The notes beneath the pieces were generated by a model, which did not search any database, had not been told where the DNA came from, and worked only from the letters and a program-made list of their open reading frames with translations. A stretch of DNA of 64,000 nucleotides from Chromatiaceae bacterium (GTDB lineage: Bacteria > Pseudomonadota > Gammaproteobacteria > Chromatiales > Chromatiaceae). Location: the NCBI GenBank assembly GCA_007693535.1, contig REDK01000111.1, forward strand, positions 1-64,000, written 5' to 3'. Numbering within the stretch: the first letter of the stretch is position 1; each line of letters opens with the position of its first letter. This document shows positions 567 through 64,000 of the stretch, in pieces. The position numbers were made by a program, and so were the translations under genes.

Positions 567-607
567 GTTCGTTCCTGGTTTGTTACTGCCTCGAAGGTCG
601 ATGGCGA

Positions 608-1263: not shown

Positions 1264-1296
1264 TGGCCTGTTCCGGGTTTCTGCTGGTGGGCCTTA

Positions 1297-4812: not shown

Positions 4813-4986
4813 GGGTCCTTCCCCGGTTCGTCTCCCGAGAGTTTCCGCGCCTGACACGGCACGTTAAACCCCCGGGAACCAAATTGCACATAACCTCTTC
4901 ACCATCAAGCAAAGAAGGGGCATTGTTCACGGCGACACGCCGCCTCGGGCAAGGCTCATGATCGCCGACCGCCTCGGCCTGCCCTG

Positions 4987-5310
4987 TTACGACTGCCCCG
5001 CACGCTGCACGCTGAAGGAGACGCCCTCATGCGCCTTCAGATGCGCGACCACGGCGAAGAGGTTGTCGGCGCGGGGGTTCCCTTGCTCGCTGAGCATCCG
5101 CATCAGGCTCTTCGGGCTCTTGTGCAGCTGCGCCCCGAGCTGTTCGAACCCGACGGTCGCGTTGACGTAGTCGCGCAGGAGGACCTTGCCGGTGTCGAGA
5201 TCGGCATTCAGAAAGGCATCGAGGGCCTCTTCCAGCAAGGCGACCCGAAACTCCGGATCACGCTCGGCGCGGGCCTTGACGGTATCTTTGAAATTTCTGG
5301 TGAGTGCCAT
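4987..5310 (-). CDS. HigA-like addiction-module antitoxin
   Basis: A 107-residue DNA-binding antitoxin of the addiction-module antidote family. The N-terminus is acidic and helical (EFRVALLEEALDAFL). The helix-turn-helix region reads VGFEQLGAQLHKSPKSLMRM, followed by GNPRADNLFAVVAHL, the usual order in HigA-like antidotes paired with Gp49-like toxins. It starts at ATG 5310-5308 with GGAGGG just upstream, and that site lies in the tail that the upstream toxin would normally occupy. It should repress its own promoter ahead of the toxin gene and neutralise the toxin. Confidence 0.75.
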   Translation of the reverse strand: MALTRNFKDTVKARAERDPEFRVALLEEALDAFLNADLDTGKVLLRDYVNATVGFEQLGAQLHKSPKSLMRMLSEQGNPRADNLFAVVAHLKAHEGVSFSVQRAGQS

Positions 5311-5365
5311 GGCATCACCCTCCTTGCTGCTTACGGTGTTTGTAGTCCTGCCAGTACGCCCTGGC

Positions 5366-5644
5366 CTAGTCGATGTCGCGCTGTTGGCGCGTTTTCGTCC
5401 CGCCCACGAGCAGGATCACGAGCCGTTGCCCGTCCTGCCCGAAATACACCCGGTATCCGGGGCCGAAATCGATCCGCCGCTCGGAGACGCCCGCCCCGAC
5501 CGGCTTCACGTCCCCGAAATTCCCGGTCTCGATGTGGGCAATCGCCGCCCGGACCTTCGCCGCGGCCCGCGCATCGAGGCCCTCGAACCACGTACCGAAG
5601 GGACACGCGCCGTCAATCGTCTCGTACTCGACGACCGCGATCAT
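5366..5644 (-). CDS. HigB/RelE-ParE superfamily toxin, shortened by an in-frame amber stop
   Basis: A 92-residue RelE/ParE-fold protein: a conserved N-terminal strand, ARAAAKVRAAIAHIETGNFG, RRIDFGPGYRVYFGQDG, then GGTKTRQQRDID. Related toxins continue with a short helix A-x-x-YW-x-DY-x-x-R. Here the reading frame after the TAG at 5366-5368 goes on to encode ARAYWQDYKHRKQQGG and stops at 5315-5317, just before the antitoxin start. The ancestral gene was therefore about 17 codons longer. The cut removes part of the C-terminal helix near the RNase surface, so the toxin may be weakened, inactive, or made full length by occasional readthrough. Confidence 0.7.
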   Translation of the reverse strand: MIAVVEYETIDGACPFGTWFEGLDARAAAKVRAAIAHIETGNFGDVKPVGAGVSERRIDFGPGYRVYFGQDGQRLVILLVGGTKTRQQRDID

Positions 5645-5682
5645 AACGTATAGTCACGTATAAGTTACCTTTGCACAATCAG
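5645..5682 (-). promoter_or_regulatory. Candidate promoter/operator of the toxin-antitoxin pair
   Basis: Two direct ACGTATA heptamers at 5646-5652 and 5656-5662 are spaced one helical turn apart immediately upstream of the toxin start codon. The AT-rich segment could also hold the -10 region of a near-leaderless promoter, with TTGTGC further upstream. Paired sites at this position fit autorepression by the antitoxin. This is inference from position and repetition only. Confidence 0.4.
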
Positions 5683-6222
5683 AAAACACCTCCTCCGGCC
5701 CTTCAATTCCGGGAGGCGCTCCGAGCACCGCGCGCGCGCAGGATTCCGGGGTCCGGGTTCAACGGCCTGTCTCGTTTGTAGTGGTTCAATGAAAACGGAC
5801 ACCCAGCAACCGCCGCAGCTCCGGCAGCATCATGGTCCAGGCCGCTTGCGGACCGCCTTTGCCAACCTTGAAGCCGAAGCAGGCAAGGCGTTCGCGGGGG
5901 ATTTCTGTGAACACTGACTGCCGATTGGCGCGATGGTCGATCTGCAGCTGCCTGATGCTGCGTGAAGGCGCGCGAGCATCGAGAACGCCTTGCGCCCAGC
6001 CGGCCGACGCCGGCGCCGGGCGCTCGGGAGCGGTGCCCTTGGCACGCGCCCGCGCCCGCGTCGACGGCGCGGGGCCGGGGCGCTAGAGTTCTGCGGCCTG
6101 CTGGCACCTTTATCGTAAGGATGCAGTCGTAGACGCAACTGCTATAGTGTTGCGCAAGGCCTCGGCACCGGCCGCGCGCGTCGACCGGTTCCCTCCATCC
6201 TATATTCTTTGAGGAGTCGATC
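5683..6222. other. Intergenic region upstream of hypB, with one gene remnant
   Basis: No intact gene is visible. The minus strand holds a decayed C-terminal fragment (5786-5960). A short imperfect inverted repeat GCAAC/GTTGC surrounds TATAGT near 6135-6153 and could be a promoter for hypB, but no good -35 element is present. A Shine-Dalgarno GAGGAG lies just before the hypB ATG. Confidence 0.4.
5786..5960 (-). pseudogene. C-terminal remnant, possibly of a transposase or other mobile gene
   Basis: A minus-strand frame without a plausible start reads IRQLQIDHRANRQSVF, then EIPRERLACFGFKVGKGG, and ends LRRLLGVRFH at a TGA (5786-5788). Its composition is that of a real protein rather than shadow sequence, and it looks like the end of a longer ORF whose N-terminal part is lost. 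I cannot name the family with certainty; a transposase tail is a guess. Confidence 0.3.
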
Positions 6223-7290
6223 ATGTGCGACACCTGCGGCTGCAACATCACCCCCGGCAACGCGCATCTGGTGCGCCCGGACGGACCCCATGGACACACC
6301 GCCGACGGCCGCGCCGCGGTCGAGGTCCTGCAGGGACTGCTGGGCGCCAATGACCATCAGGCGGCCCACAATCGCGAGCACTTCGACGATCTGGGGGTCC
6401 TGGCGATCAACCTGATGTCCTCGCCCGGGGCAGGCAAGACCAGCCTGCTGGAGGCCACCATCGAGGCGCTCGGTACGGAGCTGCGCATCGCCGTCATCGA
6501 GGGCGACCTAGAGACCGAGAACGACGCCGAGCGCATCCGCGCCAAGGGCGTCCCAGCGATCCAGATCGCCACCGGCAGCGCCTGTCACCTAGATGCCCAC
6601 ATGGTGCATACGGCCCTGCACCGGCTCGATCTGGGCAGCATCGACGTCCTCTTCATCGAAAACGTCGGCAACCTGGTATGCCCGGCCAGCTTCGACCTCG
6701 GCCAGCATCGCAATGTGACCCTGCTGTCGGTGCCCGAGGGCGACGACAAACCCGCCAAGTATCCGGTGATGTTCCGCGCCGCCGACCTGGTGCTGCTGAC
6801 CAAGACCGATCTGCTGGCGGTACTCGACGAGTTCGAGCCGGCGCGGGCCGAGAGCTGTCTGCGGGCGCTGGCCAGTACCGCCCCGTTCCTGCCGGTGGTG
6901 GCCCGGCGCGGCCGCGAGGACCTGGCTGCCTGGCTCGACTGGCTGCACACCGAGGTGGCGGCGCAGCGCGCCCGCCGCGGCACCGGCGCAACCCTGCGCC
7001 CACGCATCCAGCCCGAGGGTCAGTCCTTGCCTGGGGCCGCGCACGCTGCGGGTCATCAGCACAGCCACGGCCACGGGCATGACCATCACCATGGACATGA
7101 CCATGACCACGCACACGGCCATCCTGGTCATCGGCATCCGCACGACCACGCGCACGCCCATCCGGACCATCGGCAGACCCACCATCACCCGCATCCCGGC
7201 GACGCCCCCACGCACGTAGCGTCACCGGATCAGCCTGGAGCCGAGCATCCGCATGCGCTGGGCCAGACGCATCCGCACCTACGGCCCTGA
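6223..7290 (+). CDS. hypB: Hydrogenase nickel incorporation GTPase HypB with C-terminal His-rich tail
   Basis: HypB delivers nickel to [NiFe]-hydrogenase large subunits, driven by GTP hydrolysis. The protein has 355 residues. The N-terminus MCDTCGC is the high-affinity Ni site (Cys2, Cys5, Cys7). The P-loop SSPGAGKTS lies near residues 66-74, followed by EGDLETENDAERI, ENVGNLVCPASFDLG and the G4-like LTKTDLL. From about residue 275 the last 81 residues contain 29 histidines. Most His-rich HypB proteins carry this store at the N-terminus, so a C-terminal position is unusual. A good GAGGAG ribosome site fixes the start. No other hyp or hydrogenase gene is in the window, so hypB is an orphan here. 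Confidence 0.93.
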   Translation: MCDTCGCNITPGNAHLVRPDGPHGHTADGRAAVEVLQGLLGANDHQAAHNREHFDDLGVLAINLMSSPGAGKTSLLEATIEALGTELRIAVIEGDLETENDAERIRAKGVPAIQIATGSACHLDAHMVHTALHRLDLGSIDVLFIENVGNLVCPASFDLGQHRNVTLLSVPEGDDKPAKYPVMFRAADLVLLTKTDLLAVLDEFEPARAESCLRALASTAPFLPVVARRGREDLAAWLDWLHTEVAAQRARRGTGATLRPRIQPEGQSLPGAAHAAGHQHSHGHGHDHHHGHDHDHAHGHPGHRHPHDHAHAHPDHRQTHHHPHPGDAPTHVASPDQPGAEHPHALGQTHPHLRP

Positions 7291-7446
7291 TCGATCCCCC
7301 GCTGCCGCAGTATCCTCCCTTGGCATCCGCCGCCTCCGCCACTCCGGCCATACACCACCAGGCTCGGTGATGCCGGCGGCGTTGCCAGCCCGAGCCCGGT
7401 GACAGCAACGCGGCGGCACAGAAAGCGCGACGCCCCTACCCGGGCC

Positions 7447-7476
7447 CCTGGCGGCTGACAAAAAAAGCCGGCCAGG
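7447..7476. terminator. Hairpin between convergent hypB and ptsP
   Basis: CCTGGC-GGCT can pair with AGCC-GGCCAGG across a loop rich in A (plus strand) or T (minus strand), with one bulged base. It sits between the ends of the converging hypB and ptsP genes, where a bidirectional terminator is expected. The U-tract lies in the loop rather than after the stem, so it is not a textbook terminator. Confidence 0.35.
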
Positions 7477-7498
7477 CGTTCGAGGATCGCACAGAGTC

Positions 7499-9775
7499 TC
7501 AGCGACCCGGCCGCACCAGGCCGCCGAGGCCGATGTCGTCGAGGGCCTCGATGAGCAGCCGGCGCACGGCGTGACCAGTCTCGCAGTGCAGCGCAACGCG
7601 CAGCAGTTCGCGAGCGCGGATGCGGCTCATGCTGCGGATCACCCCCTTGACCCGCAACAGACTCCCGGCCCCCATGCTCAGGCTGTGCACGCCCATGCCG
7701 AGCAGTAGTACCGCGGCCAGCGGATCGCCGGCCATCTCGCCGCAGACGCTGACCTCGCGGCCGTGGGCGCGGGCGCCGGCCAGGACCATGATCAGGGCCT
7801 CGAGCACGGCCGGATGCAGGTCGTCGTAGAGGGCGGCGACATGGGCGTTGTTGCGGTCCACCGCTAGCAGATATTGGGTGAGATCGTTGGTACCCACCGA
7901 CAGGAATTGCACCCGCCGCGCCAGGGCATCGGCCTGATAGACCGCGGCCGGGACCTCGATCATCACGCCGATGGGCGGCATGTCCACGTCCAGACCCTCG
8001 TCGCGCAATTCGGCATGGGCGCGCTCGATCAGCAACAGGGCATCATCCACCTCGTCCACGGTGGTGATCATCGGCAGCAGGATCTGCAGATTGTCCAGTC
8101 CCATCGCGGCACGCAGCATGGCGCGTACCTGGGTGATGAAGATCTGTGGATTGTCGCGGGTGATGCGAATCCCGCGCCAGCCGAGAAAGGGATTGGATTC
8201 GCTGACCGGGAAATAGCTCAGCGGCTTGTCGCCGCCGATGTCCAGGGTGCGGATGGTGACCGGGCGCGGGGCGAAGGTGGCAAGGACCTGCCGGTAATGA
8301 TTGGTCTGGTTATCCTCGCTCGGGAAGCGGTCGCGCACCATGAAGGGCAGTTCGGTGCGATAGAGCCCGACGCCGGCGGATTCCTCGATCCCCAGCGGAC
8401 GCTGTTCGGAGACCAGGCCGGTATTGAGGAAGAGCGGCAGGTTATAACCGTCGGTGGTCTCACAGGGCAGCCCGCGCAGGGCGTCGAGTTCACTGGTCAG
8501 GGCCAGATCGTCGGCAGACAGGCGCTCGTATTCGGCCCGCACCGATGCCGATGGCGAGACATAAACCCGTCCGCGGTAGCCGTCGATGATGAGTTCCGTC
8601 CCCTCCATCCGGCTGACCGGCAGGTCCACTACCCCCACTGCCGCCGGCACGCCGATGCCGCGGGCGAGGATGGCCATGTGCGAGGAACCCGAACCGCTGC
8701 TGCTGACGATGCCGGCCAGCGCTGCCCGCGGCACCTCGGCGATCTGCATGGCGCTGATCTCCTCGCCCACCAGGATGGTGCGCGGCGGATACTCCGGGAG
8801 CTGGGCCTCCTCGTGCTGCAGCCGCACCAGCACCCGCTGACCCAGGTCGCGCAGGTCGGCCGCCCGCTCGCGCAGGTAAGGGTCGGACATCTCGTCGAAG
8901 ACCCGGGCATGATCGGCAATGGTGGCGCGCAGGGCGCCCTGCGCCCAATTGCCAGCCTCGATGCGGGCGATGGCATCGTCCACCAGGGTGTCGCTCTTGA
9001 GCATGAGGCGCCAGGCGGTGAATAGGGCGCGATCCTCCTCGCGCAGCGCATCGCCGAGACGGGCAGCAAAGGTGCGGATGTCCTCGGCGACATCGGTCAG
9101 GGCCTCGCGCAGGGCATCGATTTCGCCTTCGATGTCGGCGGCCGGCTTGTCCGGGACCGCATCCAGATCGGCCGGCGGATAGACCACGAAGGCGGTCCCG
9201 AAGGCGATGCCAGGGGCCGCCGCCAGCCCCTCCAGGAAGCGCCGCGAGGCAGGGCCGCCGGCGTGCTGCAGGCGGGCCAGCTCGCCCGTGCTGCGGGCCA
9301 TCGCAATGGCCCCGGCGAGCTGGGCAGCCAGGGTGATGACGAAGGTGACCTCGTCGTCGTTGAAGGGCCGCGGCGCGGCCTGGCGCAACACCAGCACCCC
9401 GAGTACCTTGCGGCTCTGGACGATCGGCACGCCGAGGAAGCCGCGAAACTGCTCCTCGCCGGTTTCGTTGACATGCAGATAGCGGGGATGACTCGCGGCA
9501 TCCTCCAGGTTGACGGCATCGGCGCGCTCGGCCACCCAGCCGATCAGACCGCGGTTGAGCGGCAGGCGCACCCGGCCGACCGCTTCCGGATGCAGACCGT
9601 CGGTGGCCTGCAGAACATGCTCGCGGGAATCGAAGTCGGTCAGATAGACCGAGCAGACATCGGCGGCCACCGCCTGCTTGACCTGCTGCACGATCAGGCT
9701 GAGGGCATGCTCGAGGGAGGACGAGCGGTTGACCTCCTGGACGATACGACGCAGAGGCTCGAGCATGTTTGGCAC
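7499..9775 (-). CDS. ptsP: PTS-Ntr phosphoenolpyruvate-protein phosphotransferase PtsP (EI-Ntr)
   Basis: A 758-residue EI-Ntr, the first enzyme of the regulatory nitrogen PTS. It transfers phosphate from PEP to NPr, then to EIIA-Ntr, in the cytoplasm. A GAF domain fills roughly the first 160 residues, which separates it from sugar EI. It is followed by the PEP-utilising N-domain, the phosphohistidine segment SGSGSSHMAILARG around residue 355, and the C-terminal TIM barrel with DIGGDKPLSYF, NPFLGWRGIRIT and SVGTNDLTQYLLAVDR. All parts look complete. rppH lies upstream on the same strand, the common gammaproteobacterial rppH-ptsP pairing. Its output would couple nitrogen and potassium status to gene expression. 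Confidence 0.95.
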   Translation of the reverse strand: MPNMLEPLRRIVQEVNRSSSLEHALSLIVQQVKQAVAADVCSVYLTDFDSREHVLQATDGLHPEAVGRVRLPLNRGLIGWVAERADAVNLEDAASHPRYLHVNETGEEQFRGFLGVPIVQSRKVLGVLVLRQAAPRPFNDDEVTFVITLAAQLAGAIAMARSTGELARLQHAGGPASRRFLEGLAAAPGIAFGTAFVVYPPADLDAVPDKPAADIEGEIDALREALTDVAEDIRTFAARLGDALREEDRALFTAWRLMLKSDTLVDDAIARIEAGNWAQGALRATIADHARVFDEMSDPYLRERAADLRDLGQRVLVRLQHEEAQLPEYPPRTILVGEEISAMQIAEVPRAALAGIVSSSGSGSSHMAILARGIGVPAAVGVVDLPVSRMEGTELIIDGYRGRVYVSPSASVRAEYERLSADDLALTSELDALRGLPCETTDGYNLPLFLNTGLVSEQRPLGIEESAGVGLYRTELPFMVRDRFPSEDNQTNHYRQVLATFAPRPVTIRTLDIGGDKPLSYFPVSESNPFLGWRGIRITRDNPQIFITQVRAMLRAAMGLDNLQILLPMITTVDEVDDALLLIERAHAELRDEGLDVDMPPIGVMIEVPAAVYQADALARRVQFLSVGTNDLTQYLLAVDRNNAHVAALYDDLHPAVLEALIMVLAGARAHGREVSVCGEMAGDPLAAVLLLGMGVHSLSMGAGSLLRVKGVIRSMSRIRARELLRVALHCETGHAVRRLLIEALDDIGLGGLVRPGR

Positions 9776-9930
9776 AGCGGCGGGACTGACTGAATACTGA
9801 CTGAATGAAGGGATGGATGCCGGGATGGATCGGCCATGGTTGCGCCAGCGCCTGGACGCTCACGCCAGCCGCCGCTCGCGGGGTCGCGATCCGGATGGCA
9901 CCGCGCCCGGCGCCGAACCCGACGGCGTCT

Positions 9931-10482
9931 TCAGCGGCGCCGGCCGCCGCTCAACAAGGCACCGGCCGGCTGCGGCTGCGCCAGGCCAGATTCGACCCCC
10001 GGCACGCCTTCCGGATAGAGCAGCGGGGCCAATTCGCTCAGGGCCTGCTCATAGACTCGGCGCTTGAAATAGACCACCTCCCTGAGCGGATACCAGTAGC
10101 GGACCCAGCGCCAGGCATCGAATTCCGGCTTCTCGCTGCGATCCAGGCAGAAGGCGCCCTCCTCGCAGTCCACCCGCAGCATATACCAGACCTGTTTCTG
10201 TCCGATGCAGATGGGGCCGCAATGCCGGCGGATGAAGCGTTTCGGCAGGCGATAGCGCAACCAGCCGCGGGTACAACCAAGCACGGTGACCTGGCAGGAA
10301 CGCAGACCGACCTCTTCTTCGAGTTCCCGGTACATGGCCTCCAGCGGGGTCTCGTCGCTACGGATGCCCCCCTGGGGAAATTGCCAGGCATTCTGTCCGA
10401 CCCGGCGCGCCCAGAAGAGCCGCCGCTGGTCGTTGCTCAGGATGATCCCGACATTCGGCCGGAAGCCGTCGTGGTCGATCAA
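9931..10482 (-). CDS. rppH: RNA pyrophosphohydrolase RppH
   Basis: A 183-residue Nudix hydrolase that removes pyrophosphate from 5'-triphosphorylated mRNA and so triggers RNase E decay. The N-terminus [14 protein letters not shown] and WQFPQGGI are characteristic of RppH rather than other Nudix enzymes. The Nudix box [20 protein letters not shown] is intact. The length is close to the E. coli enzyme, with a slightly extended Ala/Gly-rich C-terminus. It precedes ptsP on the same strand with about 155 bases between, so co-transcription is likely. Confidence 0.93.
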
Positions 10483-10966
10483 GGTGCCGTACCTCGTTGA
10501 GTTCCGTCAGCATTTTTCCACATTCGCGGCAATGTCGGCAAATCGCGGGCTGCGGCGGGGTTTGCCCTCGATGCCATGATATCGCCGGAGAGTCGCTGAT
10601 GCCTGGTCGCCAGCACCGGGTGTCCCGGGCGCCTCGGCAGGGTACCATCGCCACCCTGGCGCGAAATCGGCGCACGGGACTGTTCAGTGGATTGGCAGCA
10701 AGTGCTGCCAGCCGCGCTACGGCGCACGCCACCTGGCGTCGTCGCGCTGTTGCTGTCCGCGGAACTGGCCGGCCCGGCGCGCGACTTTGGCGCCCGCGGC
10801 TAGGCGCTGCTGGCGTCTGTGGTGCCAGCGCTGAACCATCGCCTGCGGGGCACGCTCAGGTTGCCGTCCTTGCACTGGTGATCGCGGCGAATCCGGACCA
10901 CCCGACCTGGTGGTATTGCTGCCGGGAGGCGGAAACCGGTTAGGATTCGGCACCGACCGCGCACGA
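10483..10966. other. Intergenic region upstream of rppH
   Basis: I see no supported gene. A short plus-strand frame near 10685-10803 (starting VDWQQVLPAALRR, ending in TAG) has protein-like composition and might be a remnant, but it is too short to identify. Other open frames here are GC-rich shadows. Confidence 0.3.
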
Positions 10967-11549
10967 TCACCCGACGGCCCGATCCCAGGTGTGACTCGCC
11001 GCCGGCACCCAGTCTCCGTCCGGTTCGCGCTGCTCCACCACCGGGTCTGCGGCGGCGAGCGCCCAGTGCAATCGGTGGGGGAACCCATCGCGCAGCCGCT
11101 CGACCCGGATACGGGTCTCATCCCGGAGTGCCCCGTCACCTCCCCGTCCTTTGACCGGACGACGAAAGCGGTCGAACTGGGTCCGGGGTTCCGCGGTCTC
11201 CGGCAGTCGGACAAGCTCTTCGTCGCGCCGCAACGCGAACCGCAGGGCATGCACGATGGTGGACTTGCCGGTGCCGCGCCCGCCGATCAGGGCGTTGTAC
11301 CAGGGGGAGAACGCCAGCCGTTCCACCTGGCCGTTGCCCATGAAACGCCTCGCAGCCCCCGAACCGGGCGACCGCCGGCACGAGGTCGGCGCGCGCGGCC
11401 TCGCCCAGGAACGCAATCGTGCGCGGCAGATTGACCTTCCCCGCGCCGTTCGGCCCGACCAGCACGTTGAGCGGCCCGCGGTCGACGCGCACCCGGGCAA
11501 GGCTCAGGAAATTCTGTGCCGCGATGCTGGTCAGACGGCGCGCTGTGAA
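10967..11549 (-). pseudogene. Decayed chimeric ATPase: AAA N-terminus joined out of frame to a TrlF-like ATPase segment
   Basis: Two minus-strand frames carry different ATPase pieces. The first (about 11549-11370) reads ARRLTSIAAQNFLSLARV and then LNVLVGPNGAGKVNLPRTIA, the start of an AAA/DUF2813-like ATPase with a P-loop in which the usual Ser/Thr is Val. The second frame (about 11345 to 10967) reads LAFSPWYNALIGGRGTGKST followed by VHALRFALRRDEEL, resembling the core of TrlF-type AAA-like ATPases. Neither has a proper end, and the two have separate P-loops. The locus is best read as a deletion or recombination scar. Confidence 0.55.
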
Positions 11550-11962
11550 TCCGCAGATCGTCGCTTGCGTGGATCATGGGCCGCGCGCGCCTGGTTGCCA
11601 CGGACGGCGCGTCGATCAGAATCGATGGCTAGCATGGTAAGGGTTCTCTCCTCTGCTGTGCCGGTGCTGGCAGCCGAGCGCTGGGCGTCCCGCGGCCGCC
11701 GCGAGCGCGCCGGACCATCGACCTGTCATCAGCCCGAGGCTGGTGGGCACAGCGTCGTGCATGCGCTGTCCCGGGGCAGTACCGACGCATTGGGACTGGA
11801 CCCGCGGCAGCGGAACCGCGATGCTAGATGGCAGCACCGAGCATACCTGCCGCGACGCGGCTGCCGCGCCCGTGGTCACACCGGGACCTCAGCGGGGCCG
11901 CGATGTGCCCCCCAACCCCAGGCCTGCTCCGCAGGCCAGCCATCCAGACCGCGCGACCCGGC
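11550..11962. other. Intergenic region upstream of HAD phosphatase
   Basis: Nothing convincing is encoded. A minus-strand SD-like GAGGAG near 11650 precedes an ATG (MLAIDSDRRAV...), but that frame stops after about 34 codons without recognisable similarity. It may be the former start region of the decayed ATPase, now out of frame. Confidence 0.3.
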
Positions 11963-12649
11963 ATGCCCCTCGCCCTCTTCGATCTCGACAATACCCTGCT
12001 CGCCGGCGACTCCGATTATCTCTGGGGTCGCCATCTGGTCGCCCGCGGCGTCGTCGATGGCGCCGCCTACGAGGCCGCCAACCAACGCTTCTACGATGAC
12101 TATCGCGCCGGCTGCCTGGATATCGATGCCTTCCTGCGCTTCGCGCTGGCACCGCTGCGCGACCATGCCGTGACGGACCTGGAGCACTGGCGCGAGGAGT
12201 TTCTGGCAAGCACGATCGACCCGCTGATCACCCCCGCGGCTCGCGCCCTGGTGGAGCGACACCGCGCCGCCGGGGATACCCTGATGGTCATCACCGCCAC
12301 CAACCGCTTCGTCACCGCCCCGATCGCCGCACGCTTCGGCATCGACCATCTGATCGCCACCGAGCCGGCCCGGGACGCAACCGGCTTCACCGGCGCCGTG
12401 GCCGGCCTGCCGGCCTTTCGCGAGGGCAAGGTCCGCCGCCTGCAGGATTGGCTTGACGCGACCGGCGCGGACCTGGCCGGCAGCCATTTCTACAGCGACT
12501 CCATCAACGACCTGCCCTTGCTGGAGCGCGTGGAGCATCCGGTCGCGGTGGACCCGGACCCGCAACTGGCGGCGATCGCCACGGCTCGCGGCTGGCCGGT
12601 ACTGGCCTTGCACCGGGCACCGCCGCAGACCGCGCCCGAGAGCCTGTGA
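11963..12649 (+). CDS. HAD-superfamily (IB, SerB-like) phosphatase
   Basis: A 228-residue haloacid dehalogenase-type phosphatase. Motif I is FDLDNTLLAGDSD at the N-terminus, motif II is MVITATN near residue 110, the motif III Lys lies in FREGKVRRL, and motif IV is FYSDSINDLPLL. The HAD-IB pattern resembles phosphoserine or histidinol-phosphate phosphatases, but the substrate cannot be set from sequence. I chose ATG 11963 because motif I begins six residues later, as usual in the family; the longer upstream frame has no similarity. The TGA stop lies inside the 5' arm of a long hairpin. Confidence 0.85.
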   Translation: MPLALFDLDNTLLAGDSDYLWGRHLVARGVVDGAAYEAANQRFYDDYRAGCLDIDAFLRFALAPLRDHAVTDLEHWREEFLASTIDPLITPAARALVERHRAAGDTLMVITATNRFVTAPIAARFGIDHLIATEPARDATGFTGAVAGLPAFREGKVRRLQDWLDATGADLAGSHFYSDSINDLPLLERVEHPVAVDPDPQLAAIATARGWPVLALHRAPPQTAPESL

Positions 12650-12714
12650 ACAAACCGCCAAGCGACTGTGGACGCGCCCGGACGCGCCCTCGCCACAGCC
12701 GGCGGTCTGTTCAC
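12646..12714. repeat. Long imperfect hairpin at the end of the HAD gene
   Basis: GTGAACAaACCGCC (12646-12659) pairs with GGCGGTcTGTTCAC (12701-12714). An inner CTGTGG (12666-12671) pairs with CCACAG (12693-12698) around a GC-rich loop. No U-tract follows, so a simple terminator is doubtful. It could stabilise the mRNA 3' end, act as a small structured RNA, or be the relic of a palindromic element. Confidence 0.45.
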
Positions 12715-12963
12715 AACCTTTGAGGTCATCGATGTGCTGCCAGGCCCCGACAGCACCGAAGACAACGCCCTGGGCACCGGCGCAGCCCATCCCCAGCGAC
12801 GCACTGGTTCCATGCGGACGAACGCTGGCCAATCGGCGACGGGGTCATGGACCTGATGGCCCGGGCCGCCTCCTGGTTGCAACGGATTCGCTATCTGGAC
12901 CTGCTTGTAGACCACTGAACAAGTGCTACTGTCCACGCCAGGCAAACCCAGAGATCGGCATCC
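12715..12963. other. Intergenic stretch with a short C-terminal remnant
   Basis: A plus-strand frame ending at TGA 12916-12918 reads HWFHADERWPIGDGVMDLM and then ARAASWLQRIRYLDLLVDH. It has real-protein character but no start, so it is probably the last 40 codons of a lost gene. I cannot assign the family. Confidence 0.3.
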
Positions 12964-13414
12964 ATGAGCGTGAAATTCTCCGAAGACGTGGTCCCGTTGA
13001 CTGAACTCAAGGTCAACCCTGGTCGCGTGGTCAAGCACGCGGTCGAGGCCCATCGGCCCGTGCTTCTCACCAGCAGGGGACGGGGGGTCGCCGTCATCCA
13101 GTCCGTGTCCGACTACGAGCAGGCTGCGGAGGAGCGCGCCTTCATGCGCGCCCGTGGTCGCGGGATTGGCCGATCTGGACGCTGGCCGCGAGGTCTCCCT
13201 CGCCGAGGCCAAGGCCAGATTCGGCTTGGCCGAAGGAATGGCAACGATGAGTCCGGAGCAGCCGAGATCCCCAGACGTCGCCTTACAACAGGGTGATGTG
13301 CTGGTAGTGCTCTCCCCACAAATGGCCAACCCCAGCGCCTGGCAGCTCAAGGATCGACGCATCCGCGTTCTCGCCGCCTTCGACCGCTCTGGGCAAACCC
13401 GCATCCGCGTCTGA
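12964..13414 (+). pseudogene. Phd/YefM-type antitoxin, frameshifted
   Basis: The first 62 codons encode a Phd/YefM antitoxin N-terminus: VPLTELKVNPGRVVKHAVEA, then RPVLLTSRGRGVAVIQSVSD. At 13151-13153 a run of three C shifts the frame. Dropping one C restores ERAFMRAVVAGLADLDAGRE followed by VSLAEAKARFGL, the normal C-terminal half. The restored frame then continues through an unrelated tail to 13414 (QQGDVLVVLSPQMANPSAW) instead of stopping, so the 3' end is also rearranged. No partner toxin is present. An antitoxin relic that lost its toxin is the simplest reading. Confidence 0.7.
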
Positions 13415-13648
13415 AGGATACCGGTTGACCCGAACCCTGCCGCCAGGGACCGGCGGCAGCCACTTGGTGCTGCGCTGGTGGCAGCGTCATCCTGCGCCTG
13501 GGCGCGGAGTATGACGATTACAGATTTTGTATTATCCTCTGCGCCGACGGGTCTGACCCGATCGGTCAACGGGCGGCCCTGTGCCGATCGGTAGCTGGTC
13601 GCGGCTGCAGACCCGTCTCCTGCCGCGCTGCCACCGGAGCCACCGTCC

Positions 13649-14452
13649 ATGCAAGCCATCTGCCGGGCGCTGTTATGCGCCACCTGCCTGGGGCTGAGTC
13701 TGCCCCTGACCCCGGTCCGCGCCCATGACTACTGGGTCATGCCGGCGACCTTCAACCCCGCCGACCCCGGCCTGCTCCCGGCGAGCTTCGCCTACGGGCA
13801 CGCCTACTTCGTCGATGAAGGCATCCCCGACCTCACCCGCTTTCGCACCTTTCTGATCCAGCCCGACGGGCGCGAGGTGCCCTTACCGGTCGCGCGCATC
13901 AGCGCCGAGCGGGCGCACCTGTTGGCTCCGCTGACCATCCCCGGCACCTATGTCCTCGGCGCCGGTTCGACCCAGCCCGAGTACTGGAGCAACACGCCGC
14001 AAGGCTTTCGCCCCGGTCGCCCCGGCGAGGTACCCGAGGCCACCAGCACCGCGGCCTTCGTCAAGTCCACCAAGACCCTGCTGACCCTGGGAGAGCCCAC
14101 CGACACCTGGGGCCAGGTGCTCGGCCTGGAGATCGAACTCGTCCCGCTGGCGGACCCGACCCGGCTCGCCCCCGGCGACCGCCTGCCGGTACAGGTGCTC
14201 TGGCGCGGCGAGCCGGCGGCGGCGACGGTGGTCGCGTTGCACCAGGGCCTGGCCGAGGGCGATCGGGACGGCGCCCAGCAGACCGCGAGCGATGCCGAGG
14301 GCCGCGCCGAGTTCCGGCTGGACCGGGCGGGTCCCTGGCTGATCGTCGCCCGCCTCGATCGCGCCGCGCCGCCGAGCAGTGGCCTGACCCGCGAGAACTA
14401 CCGCGCCTATCTGTTGTTGGAAGTGACCGCCACCGGGGGGGACGACGCATGA
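13649..14452 (+). CDS. Periplasmic DUF4198 (NikM-like) metal-uptake protein
   Basis: A 267-residue exported protein. A signal peptide (AICRALLCATCLGLSLPL...VRA) is followed by HDYWVMPATF, the usual His-containing mature start of DUF4198 proteins. The body is Pro-rich with beta-type repeats. Family members accompany TonB receptors or nickel/cobalt transporters and probably bind or pass metal in the periplasm. Its stop overlaps the start of the TonB receptor (ATGA), showing translational coupling. A possible -10 element TATTAT lies at 13530-13535, and a CCGATCGGT repeat occurs at 13558 and 13584. I found no cobalamin riboswitch boxes. Nickel supply for the HypB system is a tempting but unproved role. 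Confidence 0.75.
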   Translation: MQAICRALLCATCLGLSLPLTPVRAHDYWVMPATFNPADPGLLPASFAYGHAYFVDEGIPDLTRFRTFLIQPDGREVPLPVARISAERAHLLAPLTIPGTYVLGAGSTQPEYWSNTPQGFRPGRPGEVPEATSTAAFVKSTKTLLTLGEPTDTWGQVLGLEIELVPLADPTRLAPGDRLPVQVLWRGEPAAATVVALHQGLAEGDRDGAQQTASDAEGRAEFRLDRAGPWLIVARLDRAAPPSSGLTRENYRAYLLLEVTATGGDDA

Positions 14453-16497
14453 GCAGCAACCGCACGCACCGACCCCCCGTTCGGTTCACCCCGCTGGCAC
14501 TGCTGCCGATGCTGCTGCCGGCGGTCGCACTCGCCGAGGACAACGACCCACCGCTGGCCATCGAACTCGGTGCGATCACGGTCAAGGGCCAGGGCCTGCG
14601 CCGCACCGACATGCCCACCACGGTCAATATTGTTGGCGCCCGCGAGTTCGAGGATCGGCGCCTGCCCCGCACCGAGGACATCCTGTTGCAGGTGCCGGGC
14701 ATTGACATCGGCAATTTCGGTCAGGGCGGGGTGGTCAACAACATCCGCATGCGCGGCTTCGGCGGTGGCGGTCATGGCGGCGATGTCGCCATCTTCATCG
14801 ATGGCATCCCGCTCAATGAGGGCGAGTCCCATGCCGATGGCTATGCCGACATCAATGTGCTGATCCCGTTGGAGATCGAACGGCTGGAGGTGTTCAAGGG
14901 GCCATCCTCGGTGCTCTTCGGCAACTTCGCCCGCGGTGGCACGCTCGCCTTCTACACCAAGCAGCGCGGCGACTATCGGCAACTGGAGACCAGCTACGGC
15001 AGCTTCGACACCTGGGATCTGCAAGGGGCGTTCGGCATCGACCTCGGCGGCGGTCTCTACAACAACACCGCCTTTCAAGGGGCGCGCACCAATGGCTTCC
15101 AGGATAATTCCGAATGGTCGCGGATCAATGCCAGCACCCGCTTCACCTGGGATGTGAACGAGGACCTCGACCTGGCCATCGGGCTGCGCGCCCATGATTC
15201 CGACTGGGATGCCCCCGGCTATATCCCGCGCGCCCAGTTCGATGCCCGTTCGCGCCGCCAGGCCCCCAATGCCGAGAACGACGGCGGCAACAAGACCTTC
15301 TATACCCAGCGGGTCGACCTGGGCTGGACCATCGATCCGCGCGCCCGCCTGCTCTGGTGGGCCTACGCCACCCAGCAGGGCTTCACCCGCTGGGCCAAGT
15401 TCGGCTACGAGCCCGGTGGCCAGCGCGAGGAGGACCATGATCGCGACGTCTGGGGGACCGGGGCCAGCCTGAACTTCAATCTCCTGGCGGCCGAGCGGCC
15501 CCTGGCCGCGGTGATCGGGATCGAGTATTACCACGAAAGCACCGACTGGCGCCGTTGGGATACCGCGAACCGCGTGCGCGAGGACCTGCGCTTCGACCGC
15601 CGTTACATCATCGACACCCTGTCGCTGTTCGGCGAGGTGCAATGGGAACTCTCGCGCTGGTTCCGGCCCACCCTCGGCCTGCGCTACGACCACTTTGGCG
15701 GCAATGAGCGCAATCGCGACCCCGCTGGCATCCCGTTCCGGCGCGGGATGAACGACTACGACAGTTGGAGCCCCAAGGTCGGCTTCCGCAGCCTGCTGCT
15801 GCCCGGGCTCGATCTGCGCGCGAGCTACAGCGAGGGCTTCGCGCTACCGCGCGGTGATGCCAAGTACCGGCCCGAGCTGAATGTCGATCCGGAGCGCATC
15901 CAGCAATACGAACTGGGGCTGACCTGGGACTATCAGCAATTGGTCTGGGCCGATCTGGCCGGTTTCATCCTGGACACCCGCGACGAGATCCGCCAAGACC
16001 CGCCGGGCTCCGGCCTGTTCCGCAACTTGGGCAAGACCCGCCGCACCGGCCTGGAGGCCGAGCTGCGGGTGACCCCGACCCCGGACCTGGAGTTCTTCGC
16101 CAATGGCGCCCTGATCGACACCGAGATCCGCAGCAACCCCGATCCGGCCCTGCGGGGGCGTCAGATTAACGGCATCCCGAACAGCCTGCTGAACCTCGGC
16201 GTGCAATACGAACCACCCCGCGGCGTCGGCGCCCGGGCCAAATGGCGCCAGGTCGGCCGCTACCAGATCGATCCGCTCAACACCCAGTCGTACAACGGCT
16301 ATGACACACTCGATCTCAGCCTGTTCTATCGCCACCGCCTAGGCGGCGAACGTGGCGGCAGCCTGCGCCTCGCGCTCGATGTCCTCAACGCCCTGGACGC
16401 CTGGTATGCCCCGACCGCCTTCAGCGGCTTCGGCACCGTCAACTACGCGGTCGGCTGGCCGCGCACCTGGTGGCTGACCATGAACCTGGATTGGTGA
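14449..16497 (+). CDS. TonB-dependent outer-membrane receptor
   Basis: A 682-residue TonB-dependent receptor with an N-terminal signal peptide ending VALAED. The plug domain contains RTEDILLQVPGIDIGNFGQG and the segment LEVFKGPSSVLFGNFARGG. A long barrel of alternating aromatic strands follows, ending in MNLDW with a terminal aromatic residue suited to BAM-assisted insertion. It imports a metal complex or other scarce ligand using the proton motive force. Coupling to the DUF4198 gene suggests nickel, cobalt or an iron chelate, but the substrate cannot be read directly. A fair TonB box may lie near AIELGAITVKG. Confidence 0.9.
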   Translation: MSSNRTHRPPVRFTPLALLPMLLPAVALAEDNDPPLAIELGAITVKGQGLRRTDMPTTVNIVGAREFEDRRLPRTEDILLQVPGIDIGNFGQGGVVNNIRMRGFGGGGHGGDVAIFIDGIPLNEGESHADGYADINVLIPLEIERLEVFKGPSSVLFGNFARGGTLAFYTKQRGDYRQLETSYGSFDTWDLQGAFGIDLGGGLYNNTAFQGARTNGFQDNSEWSRINASTRFTWDVNEDLDLAIGLRAHDSDWDAPGYIPRAQFDARSRRQAPNAENDGGNKTFYTQRVDLGWTIDPRARLLWWAYATQQGFTRWAKFGYEPGGQREEDHDRDVWGTGASLNFNLLAAERPLAAVIGIEYYHESTDWRRWDTANRVREDLRFDRRYIIDTLSLFGEVQWELSRWFRPTLGLRYDHFGGNERNRDPAGIPFRRGMNDYDSWSPKVGFRSLLLPGLDLRASYSEGFALPRGDAKYRPELNVDPERIQQYELGLTWDYQQLVWADLAGFILDTRDEIRQDPPGSGLFRNLGKTRRTGLEAELRVTPTPDLEFFANGALIDTEIRSNPDPALRGRQINGIPNSLLNLGVQYEPPRGVGARAKWRQVGRYQIDPLNTQSYNGYDTLDLSLFYRHRLGGERGGSLRLALDVLNALDAWYAPTAFSGFGTVNYAVGWPRTWWLTMNLDW

Positions 16498-60383: not shown

Positions 60384-61172
60384 TCAGGCCGCATCGGGCG
60401 CTGGCACGGGCCGGCGCAGCACCTCGCTGGCAAGGGCCTGATAAGCGATGGAGCCGCGCGAGGTCCGATCATAGAGCAGGGCCGGCAGACCATGGCTGGG
60501 GGCCTCGGCCAGGCGCACATTGCGCGGGATGATGGTGCGATAGACCTGGCGGTCGAAATGCGTCACCAATTGGGTAGAGACCTGGTTGGCGAGATTGTTG
60601 CGTGGATCATGCATGGTGCGCAGGATGCCCTCGATGCGCAGCCCGCCGTTGCGGCTGGCGCGGATCTGCCCGATGGTATCGAGCAGCGCGGAGAGCCCTT
60701 CCAGGGCATAGTATTCGCACTGAATCGGGATCAAGACGCCATCGGCGGCGACCAGGGCATTGACCGTCAGCATATTCAGCGACGGCGGGCAATCGATGAT
60801 GATCATCTCATAGGCCGGCGCCACCGGGGCCAGGGCCGCGGCCAGGGTCCGTTCCCGCTGCGCCCCCTGCATCAGACCCACCTCGGCGGCGGTCATGTCG
60901 CCATTCGCCGGCAGCAGGTCGAAACCCGGCGCTGGCGCGGCGACGCGCACCACGCAGTCGGTGAAGGCACTTGCCCCCAGCAGCAGGTCGCAGCCGGTCT
61001 GGGTGAGCGCGGCCTTGTCGACGCCCACGCCCATAGTGGCATTGCCCTGGGGGTCCAGGTCCACCAACAGGACCCGGCGTTGTAGTGCGGCCAGCGAGGC
61101 GGCCAGATTGACGGCAGTGGTGGTCTTGCCGACGCCACCCTTCTGGTTGGCGATGGCGATGATTCTAGCCAT
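60384..61172 (-). CDS. parA: Chromosome-partitioning ATPase ParA
   Basis: A 262-residue ParA/Soj ATPase starting [20 protein letters not shown], with the deviant Walker A, then [17 protein letters not shown] and [20 protein letters not shown]. The C-terminus contains [20 protein letters not shown]. It overlaps the rsmG stop by eight bases and lies upstream of parB, the conserved rsmG-parA-parB order found near gammaproteobacterial origins, although mnmG is not adjacent here. Confidence 0.95.
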
Positions 61173-61911
61173 GGGGTTGCGTGGGGAATGGGATCAGGAT
61201 GAGGTTCCGTTCACCGGGGAGCGCGGGAATGGACAGCGGATAACAGCGCGGCGCCGGCTGCCCTGCCAGGCGTGCCGCACCCGCTGGCGAGTCGCCGGTG
61301 CCGGCCCATTGCACCTGCAGGGCGGCCAGTTCCGCCGCGGCATCGGGACCCTTCAGCGCCAGCAGGCGACCGCCCGGGGCGGCCAAATGGGCGGTTGCCG
61401 CATAGAGTTCGGGAAGGCGCGCCAACGCGCGGGCCAGGATGGTAGCGAATTTCCGCGGCGGCCGATATGTCGCCAGACGCGTCTGCACCACCGCGACATT
61501 GGTCAATCCCAGTTCCAGTGCCGCCTGACGCACGAATCTGGTCTTCTTGCCATTGCTGTCGAGCAGGACAAAGGGCAGGTCCGGACGCGCCAGGGCGAGC
61601 GGGATGCCCGGCAGTCCGGCACCGGTGCCAGCATCGAGTACCGGTCCCACATCCACCCAGGGCAGCACCGCCAGGCTGTCGAGCAGGTGGCGCGCGATCA
61701 TCGCCACCGGATCGCGCACCGCGGTCAGATTGAAAGCCCGGTTCCAGCGCCACAGCAGTTCAATGAAGGCGATGAGGTGCGCGCGTGCGCGCACGTCGAG
61801 AGCGGCACCAATGACTGGGTCCATGGCCGCGAGCCCGGCGTCAAGACGCTGGCGCAGATCATTGGGGTCAGGCGGAGCGGGTTGGCCGGCGGCCGGGGGG
61901 ACCGGGGTCAT
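61165..61911 (-). CDS. rsmG: 16S rRNA (guanine527-N7)-methyltransferase RsmG
   Basis: A 248-residue SAM-dependent methyltransferase that modifies G527 of 16S rRNA. Motifs include [40 protein letters not shown] and the SAM site [15 protein letters not shown], then [21 protein letters not shown] start it at ATG 61911, because the longer frame upstream is GC-rich shadow. An Ala/Pro-rich N-terminal extension precedes the domain. It is coupled to parA. Confidence 0.92.
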
Positions 61912-62334
61912 CGCGGATTCCGGGCAGGCGCAGCAGTGGCGGGAGGCGGCGAACGGCCGCGGGATCGGTTCGCGCCAGTGTAACCCTTGCGGCGCGGTGC
62001 GCGGTGCCTGTCCACCTAGTCGCTGCCGGGCCAGCCGATAAAAATGTTGAGTAAAACAATAATGATTCGCGTTCGTTTGCCAGCCCTCGGGCCAAGCCGT
62101 TACCATGCGACGCCGGTGGACGCATCCCTGTCCCGCACCCGGGGCCAAGCCACGGCGACCCGCAGTGGCCGGACTGCCTCGGGTCGATGAGCGTCCGGTC
62201 CCGCCGAGCCGGCGGCGTGGACGCGCTCGGCGGACGCCCGCTCCAGCCCCCGTGACGGGGTGCGCGCCGCTCCCGATCGCGTTCAACCTGCGCCGGCCCC
62301 GACTCACCACGCACCCCCAGCGAGACCAATCGAC
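61912..62334. other. Intergenic region between rsmG and the MamC-like cluster, with AT-rich island
   Basis: No gene is supported. A strikingly AT-rich segment (62035-62075) stands out in GC-rich surroundings, and probably carries promoters for both divergent units. It contains a Fur-like sequence described separately. The remainder is GC-rich and featureless, and the first gene of the right-hand cluster lacks an obvious Shine-Dalgarno. Confidence 0.4.
62058..62076. promoter_or_regulatory. Possible Fur box
   Basis: AATAATGATTCGCGTTCGT resembles the Fur consensus (AATAATGATTCTCATTATT-like) in its first eleven bases, but the right half is poor. Its place upstream of a suspected iron-related cluster makes it worth a test. 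Low confidence by sequence alone. Confidence 0.3.
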
Positions 62335-63264
62335 ATGAGTGATCACGGCAACAAGGACGCGGGACCTCCCGCCCAGGACCACGCGCACGCGGCCGGGGTC
62401 GCGGTGAAGGCCGGTGAGCCGGGATGCTCCGCGGCCCCGGGCGCCGCAGCGGCGATGCCCGGGGCGGCCATGGGGGCGGGCCCAGGTCCTACCGCGGCGA
62501 CGGCCACCGGGACCGGCCCGGCTGCTGGCCTCTACAATGCAGCCCAACATCCAGTCCCGGGTCAGGCGGCCCCCGCGCGCGGTGCGGGCCCAGCGCAACC
62601 GGCAGCCTATGGGGCAGCGGGCGCGCCCGGCCCCGGGCAGCAGCCCGCAGCGCCGCATCCCTACGGGGCCCGCCCCTATAGCGCCGCTCCAACGATGCAA
62701 CCTCCCCCCGCTGGTCAGCCAGCCTGGGCACCCGGTCAGGCCCCGGGCCCGGCGTATTCACCGGCCTATGGGCAGGCAGCCTACGGGGTACCGGCCTATG
62801 GGCAGGCAGCCTACGGGGCACCGGCCTATGGCCCGGCAGCCTATGGGGCACCAGCCTATGGGGCCGCGCCGCATGGTGCGATGCCAAGCCATGCCGGCGC
62901 CCATGGCGCCGGTCAGCACGGACTCCCGCCCGGTATGCAGCCCAGCCAACAACCTGGCCAGCAGCCTGGCCAGCATCAGGGTCCCCGAGCACAGGCAGGC
63001 CTCAACGACCTGGTCGAGGAGATTAGCAACGGCGGCAACGGCCTCGCCAGCCTCGGGCGCATGCTCAATCTGGAGGATTCGGAATTCTGGAAAGGGGCGC
63101 TGATCGGTGCCGCCGCGGTGCTGGTGGTTACCAACGACGCGGTGCACGACCTGCTGTTCAAGACCGGCGCCGCCGCCAAACGCACGGTGCAGGGCGGGAC
63201 CGACCGGCTCCGCGAGTCGGTCGGTGGCACGGCGTCCGACAAGTCCGGACCGACCCAAGGATGA
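62335..63264 (+). CDS. Low-complexity protein with C-terminal Gly-zipper membrane helix
   Basis: A 309-residue protein. Residues 1-220 are rich in Ala, Pro, Gly, Tyr and Gln, with four decapeptide repeats (PAYGQAAYGA-type) near residues 143-182, so this part should be disordered or phase-separating. The C-terminal part reads LNDLVEEISNGGNGLASLGR, then LNLEDSEFWKGALIGAAAVL and VTNDAVHDLLFKTGAAAKRT. One Gly/Ala-rich membrane helix lies near residues 253-268 with an amphipathic tail. The stop overlaps the next start (ATGA). I know of no named family for the whole. It could anchor or scaffold a membrane-bound compartment with its three coupled neighbours. Confidence 0.72.
   Translation: MSDHGNKDAGPPAQDHAHAAGVAVKAGEPGCSAAPGAAAAMPGAAMGAGPGPTAATATGTGPAAGLYNAAQHPVPGQAAPARGAGPAQPAAYGAAGAPGPGQQPAAPHPYGARPYSAAPTMQPPPAGQPAWAPGQAPGPAYSPAYGQAAYGVPAYGQAAYGAPAYGPAAYGAPAYGAAPHGAMPSHAGAHGAGQHGLPPGMQPSQQPGQQPGQHQGPRAQAGLNDLVEEISNGGNGLASLGRMLNLEDSEFWKGALIGAAAVLVVTNDAVHDLLFKTGAAAKRTVQGGTDRLRESVGGTASDKSGPTQG
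62761..62880 (+). repeat. Four tandem 30-bp repeats encoding decapeptides
   Basis: Units at 62761, 62791, 62821 and 62851 begin CCGGCCTATGG or CCAGCCTATGG. The first two differ at only the last bases, the third is diverged and the fourth is degenerate. They encode PAYGxAAYGx repeats and keep the reading frame, so the repeat number could vary between strains. Confidence 0.8.
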
Positions 63265-63422
63265 CGACCATGGCCACGTCGGTCGCTGCATCCCCGCTAG
63301 GTACGACGGCCAAGCCCGCCGTGACCACCCCGGCGCTGGTCGACCACCCGCGCCGCACCCGGCTGGCGGTACCCGGCGCCAGCCGCCCAAGCCGACCCGG
63401 CCGGCCGCCGGAGGCGCGCTGA
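63261..63422 (+). CDS. Short Pro/Arg-rich protein, translationally coupled
   Basis: A 53-residue frame starting at ATG 63261, which overlaps the previous stop (ATGA), and ending at TGA 63420-63422, which overlaps the next ATG (TGATG). The translation is MTTMATSVAASPLGTTAKPA and then TTPALVDHPRRTRLAVPGAS, ending RPGRPPEAR. It is hydrophilic, with no membrane helix. The two-sided overlap is the main support for a real gene. Function unknown; a basic peptide could bind acidic surfaces or nucleic acid. Confidence 0.5.
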   Translation: MTTMATSVAASPLGTTAKPAVTTPALVDHPRRTRLAVPGASRPSRPGRPPEAR

Positions 63423-63643
63423 TGTCCGCCGGCCAAGCGCCCCCGGGCGCCGGACGCGGCGCTCAGCAGGGACCGCAGCGCCAGCGGCACGGCGTCGCCA
63501 AGAACCTCGCCGAGGGCATCGGTGGGCTAATGGTGGGCGCCGCGCTGGTCCTGCTGCTCGGCGCCCTGCGCCGCTCGCGCCACCCCCAACCGCCGGCCAG
63601 CATTCCCTCACCTCCCCCGACACCGACGGAGCCCGAGTCATGA
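63422..63643 (+). CDS. Small single-pass membrane protein
   Basis: A 73-residue protein. A basic N-terminus (GPQRQRHGVAKNLAEGIGGL) leads into one hydrophobic helix with Gly and Ala (MVGAALVLLLGALRR) and a Pro-rich tail (ASIPSPPPTPTEPES). The ATG overlaps the preceding stop by one base and the TGA overlaps the next ATG (ATGA). Its topology resembles small proteins of ferrosome or magnetosome-type membrane compartments, but there is no firm family match. The tail may be an interaction site. Confidence 0.6.
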   Translation: MSAGQAPPGAGRGAQQGPQRQRHGVAKNLAEGIGGLMVGAALVLLLGALRRSRHPQPPASIPSPPPTPTEPES

Positions 63644-64000
63644 GCAGCCACTACGAGTACGCCGGTCAGTACCCGGTTCAGGGCGGCCTCGCCCAACCCG
63701 GAACACCCGTGCCCTACTACCACAGCCACAGCACCAGTTATGCCAGCGTACCGAACGCCGGCGCCCTGTGGGAGGCCGGCAAATTTGGCGCTGTGGTCGG
63801 CCTGTGCGGAGCCGGGGCAGTGAATCTACACCGGTTGCAGGCCGACGAATTGAGCCGGCGCGAGGCGACCATCGACACCCTGCGCACCGGCGTCGCCGCC
63901 GGGGTCGCCACCGCTGCCGCGACCCTGGTCGCCAGCCAGTTCCGTGGCTCGGTGCTGCCCTTGCTGGCCACCCTGGCGACCGGCACCGCCCTGATGTATG
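63640..64000 (+). CDS. MamC-like small membrane protein, C-terminus beyond window
   Basis: At least 120 residues from ATG 63640; the frame is open at the right edge. The first 40 residues are Tyr/Pro/His-rich and disordered. Residues 47-62 (GKFGAVVGLCGAGAVN) and 82-120 form two hydrophobic Gly/Ala helices joined by the loop LHRLQADELSRREATIDTLR. This pattern aligns with magnetosome MamC, whose corresponding loop reads as N-V-R-x-L...T-x-x-E-A-x-I-D-T. MamC Glu66 and Asp70, which bind magnetite surfaces, correspond to Glu75 and Asp79 here. The alignment rests on memory of MamC, not on a search. A ferrosome or other iron-storage compartment is one reading. Confidence 0.6.
   Translation, partial: MSSHYEYAGQYPVQGGLAQPGTPVPYYHSHSTSYASVPNAGALWEAGKFGAVVGLCGAGAVNLHRLQADELSRREATIDTLRTGVAAGVATAAATLVASQFRGSVLPLLATLATGTALMY

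Follow-up and report, generated by a model that had tools for sequence, protein, structure and literature searches.

A probable ferrosome operon with a MamC-like protein in a Chromatiaceae bacterium

What would a relative of the magnetosome protein MamC be doing in a purple sulfur bacterium? MamC is used by magnetic bacteria to shape magnetite crystals, while ferrosomes are membrane-enclosed compartments in which some bacteria store iron, and both bear on four open reading frames (ORFs), g1 to g4, which were read from the letters at the end of a 64,000-nucleotide stretch of DNA from Chromatiaceae bacterium, on its forward (+) strand. This stretch, called the window in the following, comprises positions 1-64000 of the 69,521-base contig REDK01000111.1 (assembly GCA_007693535.1). 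A preliminary description of the window had pointed out the resemblance of g4 to MamC and had proposed either the start of a ferrosome (fez) cluster or a new iron-storage compartment. Another 5.5 kb of the contig can be read to the right of the window, which completes g4 and adds g5 and g6 on the same strand, resulting in a six-ORF operon. The six are read as a probable ferrosome operon, in the order g1, the slot of g2, g3, the MamC-like g4, g5 and a P1B6 ATPase of FezB type (g6); a MamC homologue would be one of its regular components, and the window end holds its front half. The surprising part is the MamC link, as the operon itself belongs to the known ferrosome type.

The operon and its ATPase

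The last gene of the operon, g6 (contig 64635-66767, + strand, 710 aa, TTG start), matches the heavy metal P-type ATPase model TIGR01525 with an E-value of 3.4e-147, and an HMA_2 match below the cut-off is obtained for its N-terminus. The protein carries the motifs SCALKLGTP and HNGTT. Among 20 aligned g6 relatives, [SA]CALKLGTP is found as motif of transmembrane helix 4 (TM4), with no CPC, and His-Asn-Gly near the C-terminus is invariant (20/20). A conserved HN of TM6 is described as a P1B6 feature, in contrast to the CPC of P1B1 and P1B2 ATPases, in the available part of PMC9374683, and the table of a review, likewise available in part, lists Fe(II) as the P1B6 substrate (PMC7558416). By these sequence features, g6 is predicted to be a FezB-type P1B6 ATPase. 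The part of the contig beyond the window yielded a P1B-type ATPase as well as a second Gly-zipper gene, and with this ATPase directly downstream and the MamC profile match of g4 reported below, the proposal that a fez cluster starts at the window end is the best reading.

All six genes are overlapping or near-contiguous on a single strand, a layout from which one transcription unit is predicted. The overlaps given in the preliminary description are present as ATGA between g1 and g2 (63261-63264), TGATG between g2 and g3 (63420-63424) and ATGA between g3 and g4 (63640-63643), and its account of g1, g3 and g4 agrees with the sequence as well. Gene g1 (62335..63264, + strand, 309 aa) encodes an Ala/Pro/Gly/Tyr-rich, presumably disordered N-terminal part followed by a C-terminal Gly-zipper helix, FWKGALIGAAAVLVV... 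(63085..63160, + strand, read from the sequence). This C-terminal part is related to g5 (contig 64094-64618, + strand, 174 aa), a Tyr/Pro-rich protein with a Gly-zipper helix of its own. A small single-pass protein with one hydrophobic stretch is encoded by g3 (63422..63643, + strand, 73 aa), relatives of which are present in most such operons within the order. The MamC-like helical hairpin, g4 (63640..64000, + strand), is cut at the window end and continues to contig position 64071, giving 143 aa, 120 of them in the window.

A gene set of this kind might also encode a metal-efflux platform: the zipper proteins would act as scaffold for a P1B6-like ATPase in inner-membrane patches, in the way known for PacL1 and CtpC of mycobacteria, and metal would be expelled from the cell. 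A weak YtxH match of the Shewanella g5 relative (E 0.0018, under the curated cut-off) would fit such a platform. However, Pfam searches at E<=1 with g1-g3, g5 and some relatives gave no DUF1490 or DUF6110, the set of five or six proteins, one of them related to MamC, goes beyond a pump and its partner, and the iron genes in the vicinity are of the uptake, regulation and storage-like kind (FeoB, FeoA, Fur, DUF2202). Export is hence regarded as improbable, and the ferrosome operon is the preferred reading.

Relationship of g4 to magnetosome MamC

At E<=1, g4 matches no NCBIfam model except NF038051, that of MamC, with E 3.9e-9 over the 120 aa inside the window and E 1.9e-9 (37.7 bits) over the complete 143 aa. 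The curated cut-off of NF038051, above which a MamC equivalog is called, amounts to 100 bits. As g4 is far below this value, it is to be addressed as a homologue and not as a MamC equivalog. Pfam returned a weak ENOD93 match only (E 0.06-0.07). In an AlphaFold2 model of residues 1-120 (32 aligned sequences, mean pLDDT 71.7, pTM 0.48), helices are placed at residues 40-67, 73-100 and 106-119; the helices of g4 are Gly/Ala-rich and the motif EATIDT occupies residues 75-80.

Across 147 genomes of the order, NF038051 gave 42 matches in 34 genomes, with a single one (genome G067) above the cut-off. Forty of these 42, from 33 genomes, are located in an operon of the described type, the remaining two being that of G067 and a second site in G035. 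At the latter site (L038, G035:C1:2535001-2555000, approximately 9841-10612), an orphan pair of a g1-like and a MamC-like gene occurs without FezB, and G035 has a full operon besides. For the reverse direction, a profile (A1) of 27 fez-operon MamC-like proteins was applied to 398 genomes of the phylum, of which 21 match, 16 at E<=1.1e-9. Fez operons account for three of these strong matches (the own genome, G386 and G478), the other thirteen coming from elsewhere; eight of these thirteen genomes were scanned with NF038051, and all eight exceeded 100 bits. The five weak matches (L084-L088, E 6e-4 to 1e-3) are positioned within ORFs of 587-1304 aa, and family group f40, which also has a true MamC (L098), accounts for four of the five. 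Profile-profile alignment of A1 with 13 MamC sequences by hhalign resulted in a probability of 98.5 and an E-value of 2.7e-15 over 83 gap-poor columns, compared to a probability of 7.5 for the control g5, a different Gly-zipper family from the operon. A search of PDB sequences with the fez profile afforded three matches at E 0.29-0.36, none of them useful.

Finally, the 27,647 ORFs of the fetched loci were searched with a profile of 14 magnetosome MamC proteins. Matches at E<=1 were these 14 themselves, 113 of the 120 fez relatives (98 of them at E<=0.001) and six duplicates, and no other ORF; the window protein scores 33.2 bits, the best of 2300 shuffled sequences 14.0 bits. Since fez and magnetosome regions make up much of the fetched loci, this test demonstrates specificity within the fetched loci, while specificity at whole-genome level follows from the NF038051 scan of the 147 genomes. 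Judged by sequence profiles, g4 is homologous to magnetosome MamC, the match being significant, specific and reciprocal across the hairpin, and the likeness first noticed in its EATIDT loop is thereby confirmed. Convergence of Gly/Ala-rich two-helix membrane proteins could be invoked instead, as the proteins are short and compositionally biased and have few invariant columns. Yet no other ORF of the fetched loci matches at E<=1, the shuffled sequences reach 14.0 bits at most and g5, a Gly-zipper family of the same operon, does not match, and reciprocal retrieval in 398 genomes and a gap-poor alignment over 83 columns also argue against it, making convergence very unlikely compared with homology of a ferrosome component to MamC.

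In MamC of AMB-1, Asp70 is reported to bind Fe and to act in magnetite nucleation, with Glu66 and Asp70 as the proposed template pair (available part of PMC6584501). The corresponding columns of g4 hold Glu75 (63862-63864) and Asp79 (63874-63876), an acidic pair spanning 63862..63876 on the + strand. For its distribution, the 135 MamC-profile matches were reduced to 129 by dropping six duplicate named loci (L128, L183, L189, L190, L192, L196), leaving 14 magnetosome MamC proteins, the window protein and 114 others, which include the orphan L038 copy and a second L194 copy apart from FezB. Acidic residues at both sites occur in 13 of the 14 magnetosome proteins, in the window protein and in 7 of the 114 others, while 68 of the latter have one acidic site and 39 have none. 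The acidic pair emphasized in the preliminary description is therefore present in g4, but its use as evidence for magnetite had to be given up: the count of 7/114 rules it out as a family trait, and a pair so rare in the family provides no ground for expecting magnetite. What the family shares is the hairpin, not the acidic template.

An unrooted tree was built from 88 sequences and 123 columns, leaving out 41 of the 129 copies in order to thin Vibrio, Shewanella and enteric sequences. Magnetosome MamC forms one side of a branch (support 100/98) among several deep fez lineages, and the window protein is found in a separate group together with fez copies (97/92). That the genes are part of a magnetosome gene cluster with true magnetite biomineralisation, for which the significant MamC match and both loop acids might be quoted, is hardly credible given 37.7 bits against a cut-off of 100, one NF038051 match in the genome, the position of the window protein apart from magnetosome MamC, an ATPase as operon partner and other magnetosome models matching none of g1-g6. 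For the ferrosome operon itself, the tree invites an evolutionary scenario, which is put forward tentatively: MamC-like hairpins may have belonged to the core of ferrosomes from early on, and magnetosome MamC may have come from a ferrosome-type operon, with loop-acid templating gained or fixed along the branch to magnetosomes. As the tree is unrooted and has few columns, and long branches meet at the magnetosome MamC group (the tree program warned of the latter two), recruitment of MamC from ferrosomes is an attractive idea rather than a result. If true, two lipid-bounded iron organelles would have a mineral-facing protein family in common.

Distribution and genomic context of the operon

Relatives of g5 occur in 35 of the 147 genomes of the order, namely 33 with a MamC-like gene, G111, and G131, where a fragment does not allow the operon to be assessed; a MamC-like gene is thus present in 33 of 34 genomes with an assessable operon. 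The operon layout is retained in these 33 genomes with gain or loss of single genes, the commonest order being g1, a first MamC-like gene, g3, sometimes a second MamC-like gene, g5 and FezB. Both MamC-like genes are found in the same-genus relatives L051, L056 and L060. The window has the second kind alone (branch support 97/92), and the slot of the first, where its congeners have that gene, is taken by g2 (63261..63422, + strand, 53 aa). While g2 is present as an ORF, as previously described, a search of all ORFs at the first 34 loci brought up no significant relative (best other match E 0.035), and g2 may not be a real gene. The idea that g2 is a remnant of the first MamC-like gene is left unproven by the lack of DNA similarity to four relatives.

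Named genomes were scanned with a FezB segment, and the best 80 of 237 qualifying loci were considered. A MamC-like gene (profile E<=0.01) precedes FezB at 77 of these best 80 loci, a share which is no census because the 80 are those nearest to the gammaproteobacterial first row; the three exceptions are L182, which has a MamC-like remnant seen with the extended profile only (E 6e-4), L197 and L201. Named loci with the operon include Vibrio, Photobacterium, Shewanella, Ferrimonas, Hafnia, Kluyvera and Budvicia, as well as Allochromatium, Thiorhodococcus, Parasulfuritortus, a Methylocystaceae metagenome-assembled genome (MAG) and a Magnetovibrio MAG. Kluyvera operon DNA gave no match in E. coli genomes. 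In the class of G437 (taken as Alphaproteobacteria), FezB was detected at E<=1e-15 in 2 of 385 genomes; the locus of G544 includes a MamC-like gene, matched there at E 1.6e-9. In G437 (L127), the FezB-like gene is situated at the contig end and broken by an in-frame TAG, its upstream genes being beyond the contig.

FezB relatives were also found in 12 plasmid records. In all four that were fetched, the extended profile places a MamC-like gene directly upstream of the g5-like gene and FezB, with E-values of 1.3e-40 (Vibrio), 8e-17 (Arcobacter), 7e-11 (Cereibacter) and 1e-8 (Azospirillum); with the first profile, these are 1.8e-15, 9.6e-11, 1.4e-3 and 3.7e-4, respectively. NF038051 matches the Arcobacter (9.4e-7) and Vibrio (1.6e-8) copies, and gave no match at E<=0.1 with the Cereibacter copy. 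As the fez-type operon of Cereibacter azotoformans resides on a plasmid typed conjugative (pORIO2, L218), where FeoA, a TonB receptor and FecR are encoded beside it, ferrosome genes may be transferable. On the strength of these sequence comparisons, the MamC-like gene is a regular part of ferrosome-type operons, and with the same operon so widespread, the suggestion of a new iron-storage compartment is not supported in the sense of one private to a purple sulfur bacterium.

Iron genes accompany many of these operons. Of 116 distinct fez loci, 12 have FeoB relatives within the stretch that was fetched, with about one expected by chance according to our estimate; those of L051, L064 and L200 were the ones checked by Pfam. 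A ferritin-like DUF2202 gene is located within the operon in L066, L113 and L184 (scores in L066 and L184 slightly below the curated cut-off), near the operon in L194 and, by annotation, inside the operon of the Arcobacter plasmid. In the Magnetovibrio MAG L194, FeoB and Fur are encoded within 9 kb of the operon, and positions 18-15220 bring together fez genes, two MamC-like copies, the DUF2202 gene, HMA_2 genes, FeoB and Fur, apparently an island for iron storage in a genus that owes its name to magnetosomes. Upstream of g1 in the window, a weak Fur-box-like site (62052..62070, + strand, 283 nt before g1) agrees at 12/19 positions with a Fur consensus; of 35 control stretches from the same locus, 6% do as well or better. 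Against same-locus controls, Fur-like sites ranked at <=0.05 in 11 of the 32 loci from the order and in 13 of the 63 named ones, which is suggestive only. In C. difficile, fezA and fezB are reported to be Fur-repressed (PMC12574912, available in part), and rpa2333-2338 of R. palustris are down in low light along with many iron genes according to the available part of PMC6879726.

On the left, the operon apparently adjoins a chromosome-partition region, as positions 60384-62000 (- strand) read by eye as ParA and RsmG; on the right, g6 is followed on the opposite strand by an apparent methyltransferase and a lytic transglycosylase, also identified by eye. A second DNA match in the own genome (65 bases, 82%) was judged to be a chance GC-rich match, the ORF there reading unrelated, and a search of window DNA against plasmids gave no match.

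Proposed function and comparison with known systems

If the operon works as its gene content suggests, the two Gly-zipper proteins with their Tyr/Pro-rich disordered tails, the single-pass protein and the MamC-like hairpin would assemble in the inner membrane, where they would shape or scaffold a vesicle. FezB would move Fe(II) into the vesicle lumen, and the iron would be kept there as a mineral for anaerobic or iron-poor periods. Zipper-packed in the membrane of such an iron organelle and with its inter-helix loop facing the mineral, the hairpin might shape the membrane or the mineral surface; by analogy, it most likely does part of a job common to it and magnetosome MamC. The available part of PMC9160268 describes ferrosomes as granules rich in iron, in some cases also containing phosphorus and oxygen, and sets them apart from magnetosomes. 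No link between MamC and ferrosomes was found in the available portions of the literature on either, and a mention is possible in the founding paper (Grant et al. 2022), which lies outside them.

Several observations weigh against a ferrosome operon with MamC as its normal component. The operon is known here from its genes alone, so organelle and metal specificity are inferred. At G111 and the named loci L197 and L201, the operon is present and a MamC-like gene is missing, and at four FezB loci from a class of 48 genomes, presumably Magnetococcia, the two zipper genes accompany FezB and a MamC-like gene is absent; hence, this gene is not universal. The loop acids are poorly kept among fez copies, and Fur-box support from the 12/19 site is weak. 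S. putrefaciens reportedly has an experimentally tested six-gene fez operon, which, like that of R. palustris CGA009, was outside our comparison, and two other Shewanella species have five genes. Should the reading be correct, an operon-fixed family common to ferrosomes and magnetosomes would be a concrete, testable evolutionary and functional bridge, and the combination of FezB, a MamC-like hairpin and Gly-zipper proteins could serve as a marker for ferrosome-type operons, including plasmid-borne ones.

Three known systems allow a direct comparison. With PacL1-CtpC of mycobacteria, the operon has in common a P1B6-like ATPase encoded together with a small transmembrane, partly disordered protein, but it differs by the absence of a DUF1490 match, by [SA]CALK instead of CPC in TM4 and by more accessory proteins. 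Closer are the fez operons, such as the six-gene RPA2333-2338 of R. palustris (the sequences of which were outside the comparison), with small membrane proteins and a FezB-type P1B6 ATPase, here in six ORFs, and with iron genes near many relatives. Compared to RPA2333-2338, the version of this order has one or two MamC-like genes and usually g3, and is known here from genes alone. FezC, for which a Desulfurispirillum indicum protein was tested, is a DUF4405-like cytochrome according to the available part of PMC10979944; no DUF4405 was returned by Pfam for g1-g6. In contrast to MamC (Mms13, NF038051), g4 stays well under the equivalog cut-off, has a long Tyr/Pro-rich N-terminal tail and FezB as operon partner, and belongs to a family in which most fez copies do not keep the loop acids. 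Both are, however, alike in the Gly/Ala-rich helical hairpin with its short loop, in about 83 aligned columns and, as far as the window copy is concerned, in the acidic residues at the Glu66 and Asp70 columns.
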